Positions 2,985 through 36,355 of a DNA stretch of 64,000 nt are shown piece by piece. The stretch covers positions 48,333 through 112,332 of the forward strand of contig CAMHNI010000008.1 of NCBI GenBank assembly GCA_946186505.1, written 5' to 3'. The translations under genes and the position numbers were made by a program. Numbering within the stretch: the first letter of the stretch is position 1; every line of letters begins with the position of its first letter. Source of the stretch: an uncultured Prevotellaceae bacterium (GTDB lineage: Bacteria; Bacteroidota; Bacteroidia; Bacteroidales; Bacteroidaceae). Under the pieces are notes generated by a model that was not told where the DNA came from, ran no database searches, and was given only the letters and a program-made list of their open reading frames with translations.

Positions 2985-3352
2985 ATGTTTCATCTCAGCG
3001 TCAACCACAAAGATGTCACCTTCGGCATCAACGAGGACATTCTTGCTTTATGCAAGCGGCAGAGCCGAGCGGCGAGGAACAAGGTCCCATACTTCGTAGG
3101 TGTTGTTGGAATAGCGCCCCTAAGAGGCAGCCTTCTCAAACCCCAATGCTGCCATATAAGTGTCAATCATGATTTGAGTGGCAGGATGGGCATTAGCTAC
3201 TCTTGGTTGGATAATAACAGGTTGGACGGTACGACCATCGAAGCCCGCAAATCCATAGAACGAATAGGCTGTATCAGGGAAGATGAGGTTGTGCATCAGA
3301 ATCTTTCTAAGCAGAGCCAAGAATCAGACGGGACGGTTCTTCGTGATCATTT
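2985..3352 (-). pseudogene. Degraded polyvalent-protein kinase-like domain
   Basis: On the minus strand one frame reads SFYGFAGFDGRTVQPVIIQP, then ANAHPATQIMIDTYMAALGF, a stop, YSNNTYEVWDLVP, another stop, and NVLVDAEGDIFVVDAE. This order resembles the toxic Ser/Thr/Tyr kinase-like domain of polyvalent mobile-element proteins (QP-V, GF, Y-N, DL..NVL.D..G, D). The DL...NVLVD catalytic region is split by a hairpin micro-repeat (GCGGCAGAGCCGAGCG, ~3055) bringing the second stop. The plus-strand ORFs here (2954, 2985) are shadows. Confidence 0.6.
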
Positions 3353-6920: not shown

Positions 6921-7029
6921 CTAATTAGTTTATATAAATGCTTTTTTATTTATAGATAGTTTTTTTTTCATTTGGTTTAATACGATCATTATTTTTCCTC
7001 TCTTATAATTTGGATGTCCTGCTTACAAT

Positions 7030-7147
7030 TGGGTGATGCCCATGATGCGGCGCACGTCCTTCTTGAGACCACTTCGTTGAACAAGCGTCTTCTTTGTCGA
7101 CGAGCGGTCGTCCATGCCCATTTCGTAGAGGATGAGGAAGAAGGTGC
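7030..7147. repeat. Family C repeat, copy 1
   Basis: From GGGTGATGCCCATGATGCGG to GATGAGGAAGAAGGTG; ~118 bp nearly identical to copies at 8230, 9424 and 10440. Read on the minus strand it encodes a fragment like ILYEMGMDDRS...LKKDVRRIMGITQ, possibly from an old coding sequence I do not recognise. It lies just downstream of the Abi-like gene. Confidence 0.85.
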
Positions 7148-8172: not shown

Positions 8173-8226
8173 CGCTCGACCTTTAGTCGCTCTTGCTACC
8201 AACGGGACGCAAGAACGGGACGCAAG
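8173..8226. repeat. Family B hairpin micro-repeat
   Basis: CGCTCGACCTTTAGTCGCTC then TTGCTACCAACGGGACGCAAG with the last 11-13 bases doubled. It sits directly before AATGCGG of the family C copy at 8230, the same junction occupied by a B element at 22718 and empty at 9424. Confidence 0.75.
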
Positions 8227-8229
8227 AAT

Positions 8230-8429
8230 GCGGATGGCCTCTTGGGTGATGCCCATGATGCGGCACACGTCCTTCTTGAGACCACTTCGTGGAACAAGCG
8301 TCTACGTTGTCGCCGAGCGATCTTCCATGCCCATTTCGTAGAGGATGAGGAAGAAGGTGTTCTTTGCAGGACCTCTGCGGAGCGACTGAGCACCCACGGA
8401 GCGCAAGAAAGCGACCAAAGGTCGAGCGG
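8230..8429. repeat. Family C repeat copy 2 plus family H/B tail
   Basis: Family C proper runs 8230-8366. It is followed by tail H (GGACCTCTGCGGAGCGACTGAG) and a B-type hairpin (GCAAGAAAGCGACCAAAGGTCGAGCG). The same C-H-B order is found at 9424-9624; H-B alone occurs at 22520-22590. Confidence 0.85.
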
Positions 8430-9360: not shown

Positions 9361-9624
9361 TCCCATTCTGCTGACTCCTGTACCTTGTGGAAAGGCTACG
9401 GGTAGGCGAGCTTGCTCGGGAATGCGGATGGCCTCTTGGGTGATGCCCATGATGCGGCACACGTTCTTCTTGAGACCACTTCATGGAACAAGCGTCTACG
9501 TTGTCGCCGAGCGGTCTTCCATGCCCATTTCGTAGAGGATGAGGAAGAAGGTGTTCTTTGTTGTACCTCCGCGTAGCGCCTGAGCACCCAAGGAGCGCAA
9601 GAAAGCGACCAAAGCCGAGCGAAG
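9361..9624. repeat. Compound repeat: A micro-repeat, family C copy 3, H tail and B hairpin
   Basis: Leading CCTGTACCTTGTGGAAAGGC, then micro-repeat A (9393-9424, core GGCGAGCTTGCTCGGG), family C (9424-9560), H tail with hairpin CTCCGCGTAGCGCCTGAG, and a B-like hairpin (9594-9624). It separates the two HigBA-type modules. The ORF 9353..9766 on the minus strand is a repeat artefact. Confidence 0.85.
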
Positions 9625-10329: not shown

Positions 10330-10346
10330 GGTCCTCCTCTACTTCC

Positions 10347-10571
10347 TCCCATTCTGTGAGATCCTGTACCTTGTGGAAAGGCTACGGGAAAGGCCACGGG
10401 TAGGCGCGTCAGCGGGAATGGGCGAGCTTGCTCGGGAATGCGGATGGCCTCTTGGGTGATGCCCATGATGCGGCGCACGTCCTTCTTGAGACCACTTCGT
10501 GGAACAAACGTCTCCTACGTCGCCGAGCGATCTTCCATGCCCATTTTGTAGAGTATGAGGAAAAAGGTGTT
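10347..10571. repeat. Compound repeat with nested A micro-repeat and family C copy 4
   Basis: Same leader as 9361 (GATCCTGTACCTTGTGGAAA). The A element is interrupted: GGCTACGGG, then a complete second A unit 10391-10420 (GGCCACGGGTAGGCGCGTCA...), then GGCGAGCTTGCTCGGGAATG. Family C follows at 10440-10571. The uninterrupted form is at 9393. Confidence 0.85.
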
Positions 10572-19927: not shown

Positions 19928-20170
19928 GAAACTAGTTTCAGACTTTCACCCTCACTGCCTTTTTTCTTGTTATTACCAATGTAAAAATCGTTTTTTTGTT
20001 TGTAACTTTGCAGGCATGGAACAGAAATGACGAACGAAGCAAGAGCAGAGCCCGCTCGACCTCTGGTCGCTTGCTACCAACGGGACGCAAGAAGCTTGCT
20101 TGCTATGCCGAGGCGCAGCCTGACTTCGCCCGATAGGGCAATGTAGAACCAAACAAGATGGAAAGGTTTT
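19928..20170. repeat. Repeat block: D3, Crp-like start relic, B and F2
   Basis: No gene. GAAACTAGTTTC palindrome (19928-19939) with a decayed hairpin; promoter TAACTTTGC then ATGGAACAGAAATGA (20016-20030), resembling the Crp start ATGGAACAACG but stopping after four codons; B micro-repeat 20053-20091 (CGCTCGACCTCTGGTCGCTT...); family F 20092-20157. Confidence 0.75.
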
Positions 20171-20275
20171 GAAATGAAACACCTGACACCATATCGCCAA
20201 AACGAAAAATCCCTCTCGCTGGTGAGGGGGAAAGGGATGGTGTTATTGTCTAAGGAGGCAGGGAGGAAAGGAGGG
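20171..20275. repeat. Family E copy 2
   Basis: GAAATGAAACACCTGACACC... with hairpin CCCTCTCGCTGGTGAGGGGG. Identity with copy 3 (21706) continues through the non-coding region into the toxin 3' end, to about 20337. Confidence 0.88.
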
Positions 20276-20548
20276 CTACTTGTCGTCGTAATGCCCGTAG
20301 GCCGAAAGCACATCCACATAAACCTCAGTCTCAAAGATTTCGTAAATCAAGCGATGCTTCTTTGTGATGGTACGGCTCCATTGGCCATTGCGGTCGCCTT
20401 TCAGTGGCTCAGGATGACCAGTGCCCGTTTTGGGATGCTCTTTCAGTTCCTTAATAAACTTATCGGCTTTCTTGTAGGCCGCAGGCTTAGAACGTTTCAG
20501 TTTCTGAAGGTCTTCAATAGCCTTTGGAGAATAGATAATCTTATACAT
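20276..20548 (-). CDS. YoeB/Txe-type toxin
   Basis: 90 residues. GTGHPEPLKGDRNGQWSRTI, then KKHRLIYEIFETEVYVDVLSAYGHYDDK, is the Txe/YoeB signature (G-PE-L, W-R-I---HRLVY, terminal Y-HY). Expected ribosome-bound mRNA endonuclease. The last ~20 codons are identical at DNA level to the second YoeB-type toxin, although the N-terminal halves differ. Downstream of its antitoxin, one-base overlap. Confidence 0.9.
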   Translation of the reverse strand: MYKIIYSPKAIEDLQKLKRSKPAAYKKADKFIKELKEHPKTGTGHPEPLKGDRNGQWSRTITKKHRLIYEIFETEVYVDVLSAYGHYDDK

Positions 20549-21700: not shown

Positions 21701-21705
21701 GTACT

Positions 21706-21810
21706 GAAATGAAACATCTGACACCATATTGCCAAAACGAAACATCCCTCTCGCCGGTGAGGGGGAAAGGGATGGTGTTATTGTCTAAGGAGGCAGGGAG
21801 GAAAGGAGGG
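21706..21810. repeat. Family E copy 3
   Basis: GAAATGAAACATCTGACACC..., hairpin CCCTCTCGCCGGTGAGGGGG; nearly identical to 20171-20275 and continuing into the toxin 3' end to ~21874. Confidence 0.88.
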
Positions 21811-22086
21811 CTACTTGTCGTCGTAATGCCCGTAGGCCGAAAGCACATCCACATAAACCTCAGTCTCAAAGATGCGATATATCAGTCGGTGCTTCTTCGT
21901 AATCTCCCTGCTCCAGCGTCCTTCGGGTTTGCCCTTCAGCGGTTCGGGGTGGCCCAAACCTGTCTTGGGATGTTCCTTCATCTCTTCGATGAATCGATTG
22001 GCCTTGGCGAATACCTTGGGCTCACTCTTGGCGAGCCGCACCAAGTCAAGTTTTACCTGGTCGGACAGTCTAATTTCATATATCAT
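21811..22086 (-). CDS. YoeB/Txe-type toxin, module 2
   Basis: 91 residues. GLGHPEPLKGKPEGRWSREI and KKHRLIYRIFETEVYVDVLS carry the Txe/YoeB signature. The N-terminus (MIYEIRLSDQVKLDLVRLAK) differs from module 1, while the C-terminal ~20 codons are the same, so the genes are mosaics or the 3' ends recombine. Overlaps its antitoxin by 11 bp. Confidence 0.9.
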   Translation of the reverse strand: MIYEIRLSDQVKLDLVRLAKSEPKVFAKANRFIEEMKEHPKTGLGHPEPLKGKPEGRWSREITKKHRLIYRIFETEVYVDVLSAYGHYDDK

Positions 22087-22370: not shown

Positions 22371-22949
22371 ATAATTTCTGAATAATCAAATTTTGGAACA
22401 GCGAAAATAGAGAAAATTTATTTTCATTATTGAGTCGTGACAAAATTCGATGACAATCAAATAATTCGCATAAAATAACATGAAGTTGAACCCTTTAACA
22501 CCAAAAACTCTTTACCTAGGTTCTTTGCAAGACCTCCGCAAAGCGCCTGAGCACCCATGGAGCGCAAGAAAGCGGCAGAGCCGAGCGAAGACTTTCACCC
22601 TCGGCGCCCGAATTTAGGGTTTCGCCGAGGGTCTTTCGTATGACTTTTTCCTACTTTCTAACATTTGTGAGATCCTGTACCTTGTGGAAAGGCTACGGGT
22701 AGGCGAGCTTGCTCGGGCGTTCGACCTTGGTCGCTTGCTACCAGCGGGACGCAAGAATGCGGATGGACTCTTGGGTGATGCCCATGATGCGGTGTACGTC
22801 CTTCTTGAACCCTTTTTTTCTTTACTAACGACGGAAACATGTCAAAAACGTAGTAAAACTACGAAAAATAATAGGATTTTCTTGCAGAAAAGAAAAATAA
22901 TCGCTATTTTTGTAGCCAAATTACAAGAATTATATAAAGGAGACCATCT
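22371..22949. repeat. Gene-free repeat block before the defence operon
   Basis: Contains an H-B unit (22520-22590; hairpins CTCCGCAAAGCGCCTGAG and GCGGCAGAGCCGAGCG), a D-type hairpin (CCCTCGGCG/CGCCGAGGG, 22598-22631), an A micro-repeat (22690-22717), a B micro-repeat (22718-22755) placed exactly before AATGCGG, and a truncated family C copy (22759-22808). The defence-operon promoter CGCTATTTTTGTAG (~22900) follows. Confidence 0.8.
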
Positions 22950-34401: not shown

Positions 34402-34989
34402 ATGGAGAGAGATTATTTGTCGAACATGAATGATGTGAGTTTTTATGGGATTGCTTCGAGTCTGGAACTTGGAGAGCACAGATATGTGCGGACGGACGAA
34501 GTGGCAATCTGTGTTGCTGAGGCCATCAAGCAGAACCATTTCTTAGTGAAGTACGATAAAACGACGGCACCGATGATTGATGCAGCCGTGATGCGCAACA
34601 TCGGATACAAGGAAGAGGAGGAACTGCAGAGAGACCGGCTCGACGGACTGGGCTCGGGCGAGTTCATCATCCTGTTCAACGTAGATAGTCTGCCGTTAAG
34701 TCTGACGGAAGCGATGGACAACGAGGCGTGGTCAGCGGACTTCCTGACATACGACGACTGTGTGGAGAAAGCGGAGTTCACGCTGAACGATCTGCTGCGT
34801 TTCAGCGACTTCGAGTACGACTATTATTACCTCTATGTCGGCGCAGCCCTGGCCATCGCGCAGGCTGAGCATCCCGACTGGTGCTACGAGACTTTTATAG
34901 AATGTTTTCGCAAAGATGTGGTTGACAAGATGGCTGAGCGGACGGAGAACTACTTGGGGTATAAAGCATTTGCAGATGAAGAAGGATGA
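34402..34989 (+). CDS. Hypothetical protein upstream of the VirE-like ATPase
   Basis: 195 residues, acidic; not recognised. The segment FEYDYYYLYVGAALAIAQAE is aromatic-rich. It overlaps the VirE-like gene by 14 bp, so the two are translationally coupled and probably act together in the mobile or accessory module. Confidence 0.65.
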   Translation: MERDYLSNMNDVSFYGIASSLELGEHRYVRTDEVAICVAEAIKQNHFLVKYDKTTAPMIDAAVMRNIGYKEEEELQRDRLDGLGSGEFIILFNVDSLPLSLTEAMDNEAWSADFLTYDDCVEKAEFTLNDLLRFSDFEYDYYYLYVGAALAIAQAEHPDWCYETFIECFRKDVVDKMAERTENYLGYKAFADEEG

Positions 34990-36355
34990 GAGAGACCCCG
35001 CCACGGCCTCCGGCCACCCCGCCCCTAAGAGGGGTGGGGAGTCGCGGGAGCGGAAGCCAAACTGGAAGGAATATACTGCCACGGTGGAGGACATCCAGAA
35101 CTTCCTGATGGACAGGATTCTGCTGCGGCATAATGTGATCACGAGGAGGGTGGAGTACCGTATTCCCGAAGGGGACCTTTGGGAAAGTGAAAAACGAAGA
35201 GTGATAAGTGAAAAAATTCTTGAGACCTTCGGAACAAGCGACCAAGGTCGAGCGGCGACCGCCGGCACGGAGTGGGAGCCAATCTCCGACCGGGTGGTGA
35301 ACTCGCTATGGGCGGAACTGTCGGCCGAGAAGGTGGTGCGGGCGCAGGACATCTACCGCGTCATGGAGTCGGACTTCGTGCCGGAGTTCAACCCGTTCCA
35401 GTTCTACCTGGAGCACCTGCCTCCGTGGAACGGGGAGGACTATATCTTAGCCATGTCGGTGAGCGTATCGGTGAAGGGGGAGATGGAGGAGCAGATGCTG
35501 TTCGCGCAGTACCTGAAGAAGTGGCTGGTGGGGATGGTGGCGGGATGGATAGACCCGGTGGTGGTGAACAACGTCATCTTAGTGCTGATAGGCGAGCAGG
35601 GCTCGTACAAGACGACGTGGTTCAACTACCTGCTGCCGCCCGAGCTGCGGCAGTACTTCTACACAAAAACTAATTCAAATAAGATGGGGCGCGACGACCT
35701 CTTGACCTTGGCGCAGTACGGGCTGGTGTGCTGTGAGGAGCTGGACACGATGCGGCCGTCGGAGCTGAACCAGCTGAAGGCGGCGGTGACGATGCCGTCG
35801 ATAGACGAGCGGGCGGCCTACGCCCACTACCACGAGCACCGCCCGCACATAGCGTCGTTCTGCGGCACGGGCAACAACATGCAGTTCCTCTCGGACCCGA
35901 CGGGCAACCGCCGCTGGCTGCCCTTCGAGGTGGAGAGCATCACGTCGCCGCGCGAGGTGCCCTTCGACTACGAGGGCATCTATGCGCAGGCATATGCGCT
36001 GTACGAGCAAGGTTTCCAGTTCTGGTTCTCGAAGGCAGAGATAGAACGGCTGGCGGAACATAACCGGCAGTTCGAGACACCGCGATTAGAGAGTGAGCTG
36101 GTGGATGTGTACTTCCGTCGGCCTCAGGGTCAGGAGCCTGGCGAGTACATGCCTGTGAGCCGTGCCCTTCAGATCATCGGCGGCAACACTGTGCAGCAAC
36201 TCAGTGCCGTACGGCTGGGCCGTGCCTTCATGGAACAGGGCTTCCGACAGGTGCGGCAGGCCCATTCGCGCGGCTATGTGGTAGTGCGCCGGTCGGCAGA
36301 GGAGATTCAGGCACATTTGCGCGGCATGGCCTACGGTGCGGATGAACCCTTTTAA
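34976..36355 (+). CDS. VapE/VirE-type SF3-like helicase/ATPase
   Basis: 459 residues from ATG 34976 (the track start at 34916 lies within the upstream gene). Core: NNVILVLIGEQGSYKTTWFN (Walker A GEQGSYKT), LAQYGLVCCEELDTMRPSEL (Walker B), GTGNNMQFLSDPTGNRRWLP (sensor/Arg finger region), as in virulence-associated E/primase-helicase proteins of mobile elements. The first ~95 residues are littered with repeat-derived insertions: PATASGHPAPKRGGESRE, SEKRRVISEKILE and TSDQGRAATAG (the last from a B hairpin at ~35234). No primase domain is fused here. Confidence 0.85.
   Translation: MKKDERDPATASGHPAPKRGGESRERKPNWKEYTATVEDIQNFLMDRILLRHNVITRRVEYRIPEGDLWESEKRRVISEKILETFGTSDQGRAATAGTEWEPISDRVVNSLWAELSAEKVVRAQDIYRVMESDFVPEFNPFQFYLEHLPPWNGEDYILAMSVSVSVKGEMEEQMLFAQYLKKWLVGMVAGWIDPVVVNNVILVLIGEQGSYKTTWFNYLLPPELRQYFYTKTNSNKMGRDDLLTLAQYGLVCCEELDTMRPSELNQLKAAVTMPSIDERAAYAHYHEHRPHIASFCGTGNNMQFLSDPTGNRRWLPFEVESITSPREVPFDYEGIYAQAYALYEQGFQFWFSKAEIERLAEHNRQFETPRLESELVDVYFRRPQGQEPGEYMPVSRALQIIGGNTVQQLSAVRLGRAFMEQGFRQVRQAHSRGYVVVRRSAEEIQAHLRGMAYGADEPF

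Follow-up and report, generated by a model that had tools for sequence, protein, structure and literature searches.

The window, that is, the whole 64-kb stretch of DNA analysed here from the genome of an uncultured Prevotellaceae bacterium (G000), carries copies of a short folded repeat, termed B. The canonical B is 39 nt long (CTTGCGTCCNNNYGGTAGCAAGCGASCNNAGSTCGAGCG), consists of two back-to-back hairpins and stands immediately 3' of TT. On the strand on which TT comes first, it reads TT|CTTGCGTCCCNNYGGTAGCAAG CGACCNNAGGTCGAGCG. The first 22 nt are foldable as CTTGC...GCAAG with an inner CC/GG pair and the remainder as CGACC-NNA-GGTCG plus AGCG, and the hairpins fold better than shuffled sequences (z -2.2 to -2.6). 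A 20-mer of B with up to three mismatches had no match in 100 shuffles, which places the copies far above chance. The window was scanned with a covariance model (R1, built from 14 copies) with the filters off.

A copy at 22718-22755 on the minus strand (58.4 bits; CGTTCGACCTTGGTCGCTTGCTACCAGCGGGACGCAAG) lies between two other repeats, families A and C, and is followed by the target AA at 22756-22757. The family A unit (GGCTACGGGTAGGCGAGCTTGCTCGGG; 22691-22717, plus strand, from sequence comparison) is the left half of the occupied junction, and the start of family C (22756-22808, plus strand, from self-comparison) is the right half. Family A recurs at 9394-9420 and, in a copy interrupted by an internal insertion, before 10437; other copies of family C begin at 8227, 9421 and 10437. 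The preliminary description had proposed that this 38-nt unit sits exactly between the halves GCTCGGG and AATGCGG, which are continuous elsewhere, and the sequence agreed on both points: matches to the empty junction GCTCGGG|AATGCGG run unbroken on the plus strand at 9414-9427 and 10430-10443, with the joins at 9420|9421 and 10436|10437. The difference is +38 and not +39 because the 22718 copy has lost one base of a loop. A longer copy at 8173-8226 on the minus strand (55.1 bits) has a 2-nt insertion between the hairpins and a repeated CGGGACGCAAG tail at its 3' side, which makes up most of its surplus length. It is directly followed by AATGCGG and family C, as had been described, but its left flank is CATCGAGG and not GCTCGGG, so this copy does not represent the occupied state of that junction.

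The sole full-length canonical copy in the window, the third that had been listed, is present at 20053-20093; it comprises the element at 20053-20091 on the minus strand (71.2 bits, the best score in the window) and the target AA at 20092-20093, and family C does not adjoin it. Two further copies were absent from the earlier list. One is a decayed copy of 38 nt including TT (35217-35254, plus strand, 33.3 bits) within a gene of 479 aa with a VapE-like domain (34916-36355, plus strand; PF05272, E=3e-36), and the reading frame stays open across the copy, which encodes about ...ILETFGTSDQGRAA... The other is a short form of 30 nt (CTTGCTTTATGCAAGCGGCAGAGCCGAGCG; 3042-3071, plus strand, 27.1 bits), also preceded by TT.

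The homology between the occupied and empty sites reaches far past the junction. In the self-comparison of the window, 22651-22808 aligned to 10339-10489 and 22673-22808 to 9376-9473. The occupied and empty junctions are thus copies of one composite repeat, and the window pair alone would be compatible with loss or with recombination between repeat copies. Two other features of this region were observed. The minus strand of family C (7029-7146, 8227-8428, 9421-9621, 10437-10571 and 22756-22808) resembles a fragment of coding sequence (NTFFLILYEMGMED...LKKDVCRIMGITQEAIRI) and not a simple hairpin repeat, and a neighbouring pair of segments with 85% identity (20170-20445 and 21705-21980) was read as encoding a YoeB/RelE-like toxin from the minus strand.

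Occupied and empty sites in genes of related genomes

That B elements insert, as the preliminary description had concluded from the junctions of the window, was borne out by the comparison at the DNA level of orthologues with and without B. Six independent occupied/empty pairs were found in other genomes, in genes for a zinc-ribbon protein, a DUF1294 protein, RNase HII (rnhB), MnmA, a SpoIIE-type phosphatase and an outer-membrane barrel protein, and each occupied gene is longer by exactly 39 nt. In the zinc-ribbon gene, AGCACA[39]AATTTCGAC in the occupied genome (G034) corresponds to AGCACNAACTT in six other genomes, including that of the window. The DUF1294 gene reads GTGG[39]AAG when occupied and GTGGAAA when empty, and mnmA reads ATCAATT[39]ATCCATT and GTCAATTCTCCATT, respectively; the rnhB, phosphatase and barrel genes likewise differ by +39. 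In all six pairs, there is no target duplication and no host base was lost. B is shown to insert whole, directly 3' of a TT dinucleotide.

The residues that flank the insert in RNase HII are near-invariant across 23 species, indicating that B truly lies within the conserved enzyme. A predicted structure of the B-bearing RNase HII has a mean pLDDT of only 66 and places the insert in a low-confidence stretch (residues 120-137 below 50); it is compatible with a loop, the model being too weak to use. The loop that follows DGNRFKPY in this enzyme (alignment A3, columns 143-188; L267-L296) is highly variable in length and sequence in the genus between near-invariant flanks, and several species hold different repeat-derived inserts there. 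An ABC-2 type permease gene (L025:1030-2217) was also seen to carry an extended form of B in frame, with the flanks CTCGGCT...GCCGCTTGG, and the gene after it has another short in-frame repeat (SRSALPLRSSKNGTQKP).

At 39 nt, B is exactly 13 codons long and is open in all but one of its six frames, so it can land inside genes. To judge from the reading frames, B can add 13 predicted residues without breaking the frame. Only frame +0 has a built-in stop (TAG). We took as intragenic the sites flanked on either side by a long open frame, the element itself being ignored, and 43 sites qualified. Frame +2 (SCVPSVASDQRSSA) was used at 16 of them, -0 (RSSSARLLPEGRK) at 11, -2 (PLELCSLATEGTQE) at 10, and +1 and -1 at three each. 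Frame +0 was never used, against 6.4 sites expected from the availability of TT/AA in the same genes (p 0.001), and the overall usage departed from this availability (chi-square p 4e-8). Truncating insertions are thus eliminated. Some of the B-encoded peptides are apparently better tolerated than others.

TT precedes B at essentially all sites, which is equivalent to a position 5' of AA on the other strand. The scan of genome contigs specified TT, so those sites are no independent evidence for the rule; the copies on viral contigs, which were searched with a pattern without this requirement, have TT at -2,-1 in 12 of 12 cases. Outside TT, position -4 is weakly biased towards C or A and position +1 towards C or G. 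Tandem arrays with a period of 7 nt lie within 30 nt of B more often than expected (27 against 2.0). The flanks of B match each other at offsets of both 7 (z 8.1) and 14 (z 6.8), and in mnmA and rnhB the heptamer array is already there in the empty orthologues. A 7-nt target duplication was thus ruled out; B lands in arrays, and the arrays account for the similarity of the flanks. Such period-7 arrays (CTTCACT, GAACATT, CTCAATT, GACAATT and others) occur in and between rumen Prevotella genes, often in frame as three units make 7 codons, both around B (L129, L131, L133, L147, L192, L253 and others) and at L108. They look like independent insertions and resemble the heptanucleotide STRR arrays of cyanobacteria.

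One position in the DUF1294 gene was found occupied repeatedly. Four genomes (G100, G056, G088 and G000) carry B at this same position, a second G000 paralogue has a partly deleted copy and G028 a diverged 39-nt insert, and the position is empty in 25 others. A single clade for the six occupied genes was rejected (p-AU 1e-13), and the tree, which is weakly resolved, requires six changes. The scattered occupancy indicates that insertion or precise excision recurs: either repeated insertion at a preferred nucleotide or precise excision has occurred, with horizontal transfer as a further possibility.

Host range of B and candidate enzymes

The genome of the window gave about 48-63 covariance-model matches, depending on filters and threshold, and 17 of its best matches are exactly 41 nt each, including the leading TT. 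B was present in 65 of the 120 genomes sampled from the genus, at 1 to 53 copies each, and in 32 of 251 genomes of the family, spanning 12 of its 30 genera; the relatives surveyed are mostly MAGs, and the site counts rest on a stringent pattern. A further 395 genomes from the phylum sample had no B. The named carriers are ruminant-gut Prevotella and their relatives (Xylanibacter brevis ATCC 19188, Prevotella communis E15-14, Prevotella sp. ne3005 and MA2016), and many rumen MAGs also carry it. Among the IMG/VR contigs, B was found in 12 stretches, and no match was found in the named phage and plasmid records searched. We found no precedent for B in Prevotella in the open literature searched; repeats from Bacteroidetes may be listed in the supplements to the REP papers.

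Across 162 distinct sites, 23 of which carry one identical sequence, the stem pair 26-32 is C-G at 81, G-C at 75, T-A at four, T-G at one and C-A at one; because the search patterns hold most other columns constant, no other stem pair could have shown covariation here. Variants with a different second hairpin were also found (CGGC-AAA-GCCG and CGTCACCC-TTC-GGGATGCCG), and one genome (G041) has ten copies with equal score.

It had been suggested that a RAYT-like or other HUH enzyme matching the hairpin might be found. For RAYT, this was not the case in the genome of the window, where a profile search for PF01797 (Y1) gave nothing, the genome being 93% complete and the absence not absolute, nor in five other B-rich genomes, and no enzyme gene consistently adjoins B. 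PF04986 (IS91-type Y2) had no match in this genome, but its control also matched nowhere, which leaves this search uninformative. A linked REPtron-like gene was looked for by clustering the proteins within 2.5 kb of B; the widest family occurred at five loci and did not look like a recombinase, and this candidate was discarded.

Y1 proteins were present in 72 of the 120 genus genomes, and in 21 of the 27 with at least ten copies of B as compared with 29 of the 55 with none (p 0.03). This is a weak association with copy number, and dependence of B on Y1 (RAYT) was rejected. The six B-rich genomes without Y1 include G032 (97% complete, 33 copies) and G000 (48 copies). Of about 26 Y1 loci examined, about 24 have no B nearby; the exceptions, in G034 and G025, are near a B or B-like copy and encode different Y1 subclasses. 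In G034, which has 53 copies of B, a RAYT-like Y1 protein of 183 aa with the motifs NHLH and YIHQNP (L107:4164-4712) is encoded about 120 nt away from a copy of B. By its motifs, this protein fits the Bacteroidetes subclass 2.6 (PMC6006769), the hairpins of which are reported to be atypical and to lack GT[AG]G (PMC6006769). It is the best named candidate for the enzyme, despite being flanked by its own, different palindromes (GCCGAATTTGCAATTCGGC / GGCGAATTGCAAATTCGCC).

The orientation of B relative to the replication strand was also determined. IS608-type insertion targets the lagging-strand template. The counts for B were 15 of 24 in a complete chromosome and 78 of 138 by local skew, neither of which is significant.

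Relation to known systems and mode of mobility

In Rickettsia and Wolbachia, the palindromic repeats RPE and WPE lie in frame inside conserved genes, have empty orthologues in relatives, are suspected to use hot spots and have no known transposase (PMC3767692, PMC2229807). B is likewise palindromic and in frame inside conserved protein genes, with empty orthologues. Unlike RPE proper, which are about 100-150 bp long and alphaproteobacterial (RPE-4/6 being shorter CGTC types), it has 39 nt, a fixed TT and a constant 13 codons, and belongs to Prevotella/Bacteroidales. GTAG and CGTC REPs have intragenic copies in many phyla, and CGTC repeats have been reported from Bacteroidetes, among other phyla, without a dedicated transposase (PMC3733652). 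B shares short hairpins, many copies, a GTAG and some intragenic copies with the GTAG REPs that have a RAYT (PMC3733652). However, its GTAG is internal (positions 15-18 of 39, 4 nt from hairpin 2) and not at the foot or end of a hairpin, no RAYT gene is consistently linked to it, its two adjacent hairpins form one strict unit, and its intragenic copies are common and not exceptional. CGTC REPs are defined by a terminal CGTC, an 8-9 bp stem, a 4-5 nt loop and a CCA-like tail (PMC3733652), and B does not fit this definition: it has a CGTC and intragenic copies, but the CGTC is internal (positions 5-8), no 8-9 bp stem with AT at the first two pairs follows it, and there is no CCA tail. With both tetranucleotides internal, B belongs to neither REP class. 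With IS200/IS605 elements, B has in common the oriented insertion 3' of a short fixed target without target duplication, end hairpins and precise empty sites. It differs in that the target is only TT and no matching transposase ends are known, and the 39 nt leave no room 5' of hairpin 1 for a guide tetranucleotide of the IS200 type; a lagging-strand bias did not reach significance in the counts given above. Palindromic repeats that lie in frame within genes are thus already known from Rickettsia and from GTAG/CGTC REPs. The novelty lies in the unit as such, in its length of exactly 13 codons, in the TT rule, in the clean proof of insertion in several genes and in the recurrent DUF1294 site.

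We consider it very probable that B is a non-autonomous, folded 39-nt mobile element. It would be mobilised in trans by an unlinked enzyme recognising the two-hairpin single-strand form. By analogy, this would most likely be an HUH-type single-strand transposase acting like those of IS200/IS605 or like RAYT, because the insertion is oriented and 3' of a short fixed target, leaves no target duplication, involves subterminal hairpins and has precise empty sites. The intragenic copies that survive would be those in permissive loops, often in pre-existing heptamer arrays.

Other explanations were weighed against this. The junction in the window is compatible by itself with an ancestral B and empty forms arisen by deletion, as there are two places (8173 and 22718) at which family C follows B, and precise excision could contribute to the interleaving of occupied and empty DUF1294 genes. 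However, the zinc-ribbon gene is occupied in one genome and empty in six, the window's own among them, and ancestral presence with exact loss everywhere else is not credible for near-identical 39-mers at 162 sites in unrelated contexts; deletion as the only process is refuted in general, and we regard an ancestral B as extremely unlikely. As little can be said for a regulatory or RNA element held in place by its function and not mobile, which we judge highly improbable: the compensatory stem change and the strict conservation of the sequence would fit it, but the sites are mostly not conserved between species, occur in either orientation, are both intergenic and intragenic, and use five reading frames. 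Passive spread by recombination, gene conversion or template switching between repeats, with no dedicated recombinase, would explain the many copies in repeat-rich junctions and heptamer arrays. It is improbable in view of the constant ends, the constant length, the obligatory TT and the clean insertion into unique gene sequence without a shared flank (zinc-ribbon, DUF1294 and outer-membrane protein genes).

It is also conceivable, if rather unlikely, that B is a REP of the ordinary kind whose mobilising RAYT (TnpA-REP) was lost or left unassembled here. A GTAG with a hairpin 4 nt later, the frequent RAYT-type proteins in the genus and the subclass 2.6-like gene close to a B copy in G034, from a subclass with hairpins without GT[AG]G, speak for it; the internal position of the GTAG, the Y1 loci without B, the two exceptions of different subclasses, the G034 gene's own palindromes and the absence of Y1 from B-rich G032 and G000 speak against it. 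A further reading, which we hold tentatively and with more doubt than belief, is that B is a minimal protein-compatible element, its length and sequence shaped so that most of its landings in genes do no harm. An enzyme beyond the known RAYT/IS200 set would insert it, and perhaps precisely excise it, at preferred nucleotides, and one and the same site in a gene would thereby switch between the occupied and the empty state from species to species.

The movement of very short palindromic repeats has been a standing question ever since no transposase turned up for RPEs and CGTC repeats. For B, the ends and the target are defined to the base, and several empty orthologous sites are in hand. Mobility and enzyme are directly testable, as B is carried by the complete genome of a cultured host (P. 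communis E15-14) and by sequenced isolates (X. brevis ATCC 19188, Prevotella sp. ne3005 and MA2016). Inserts of 13 residues in the proteins of rumen Prevotella should be recognised as element-derived.
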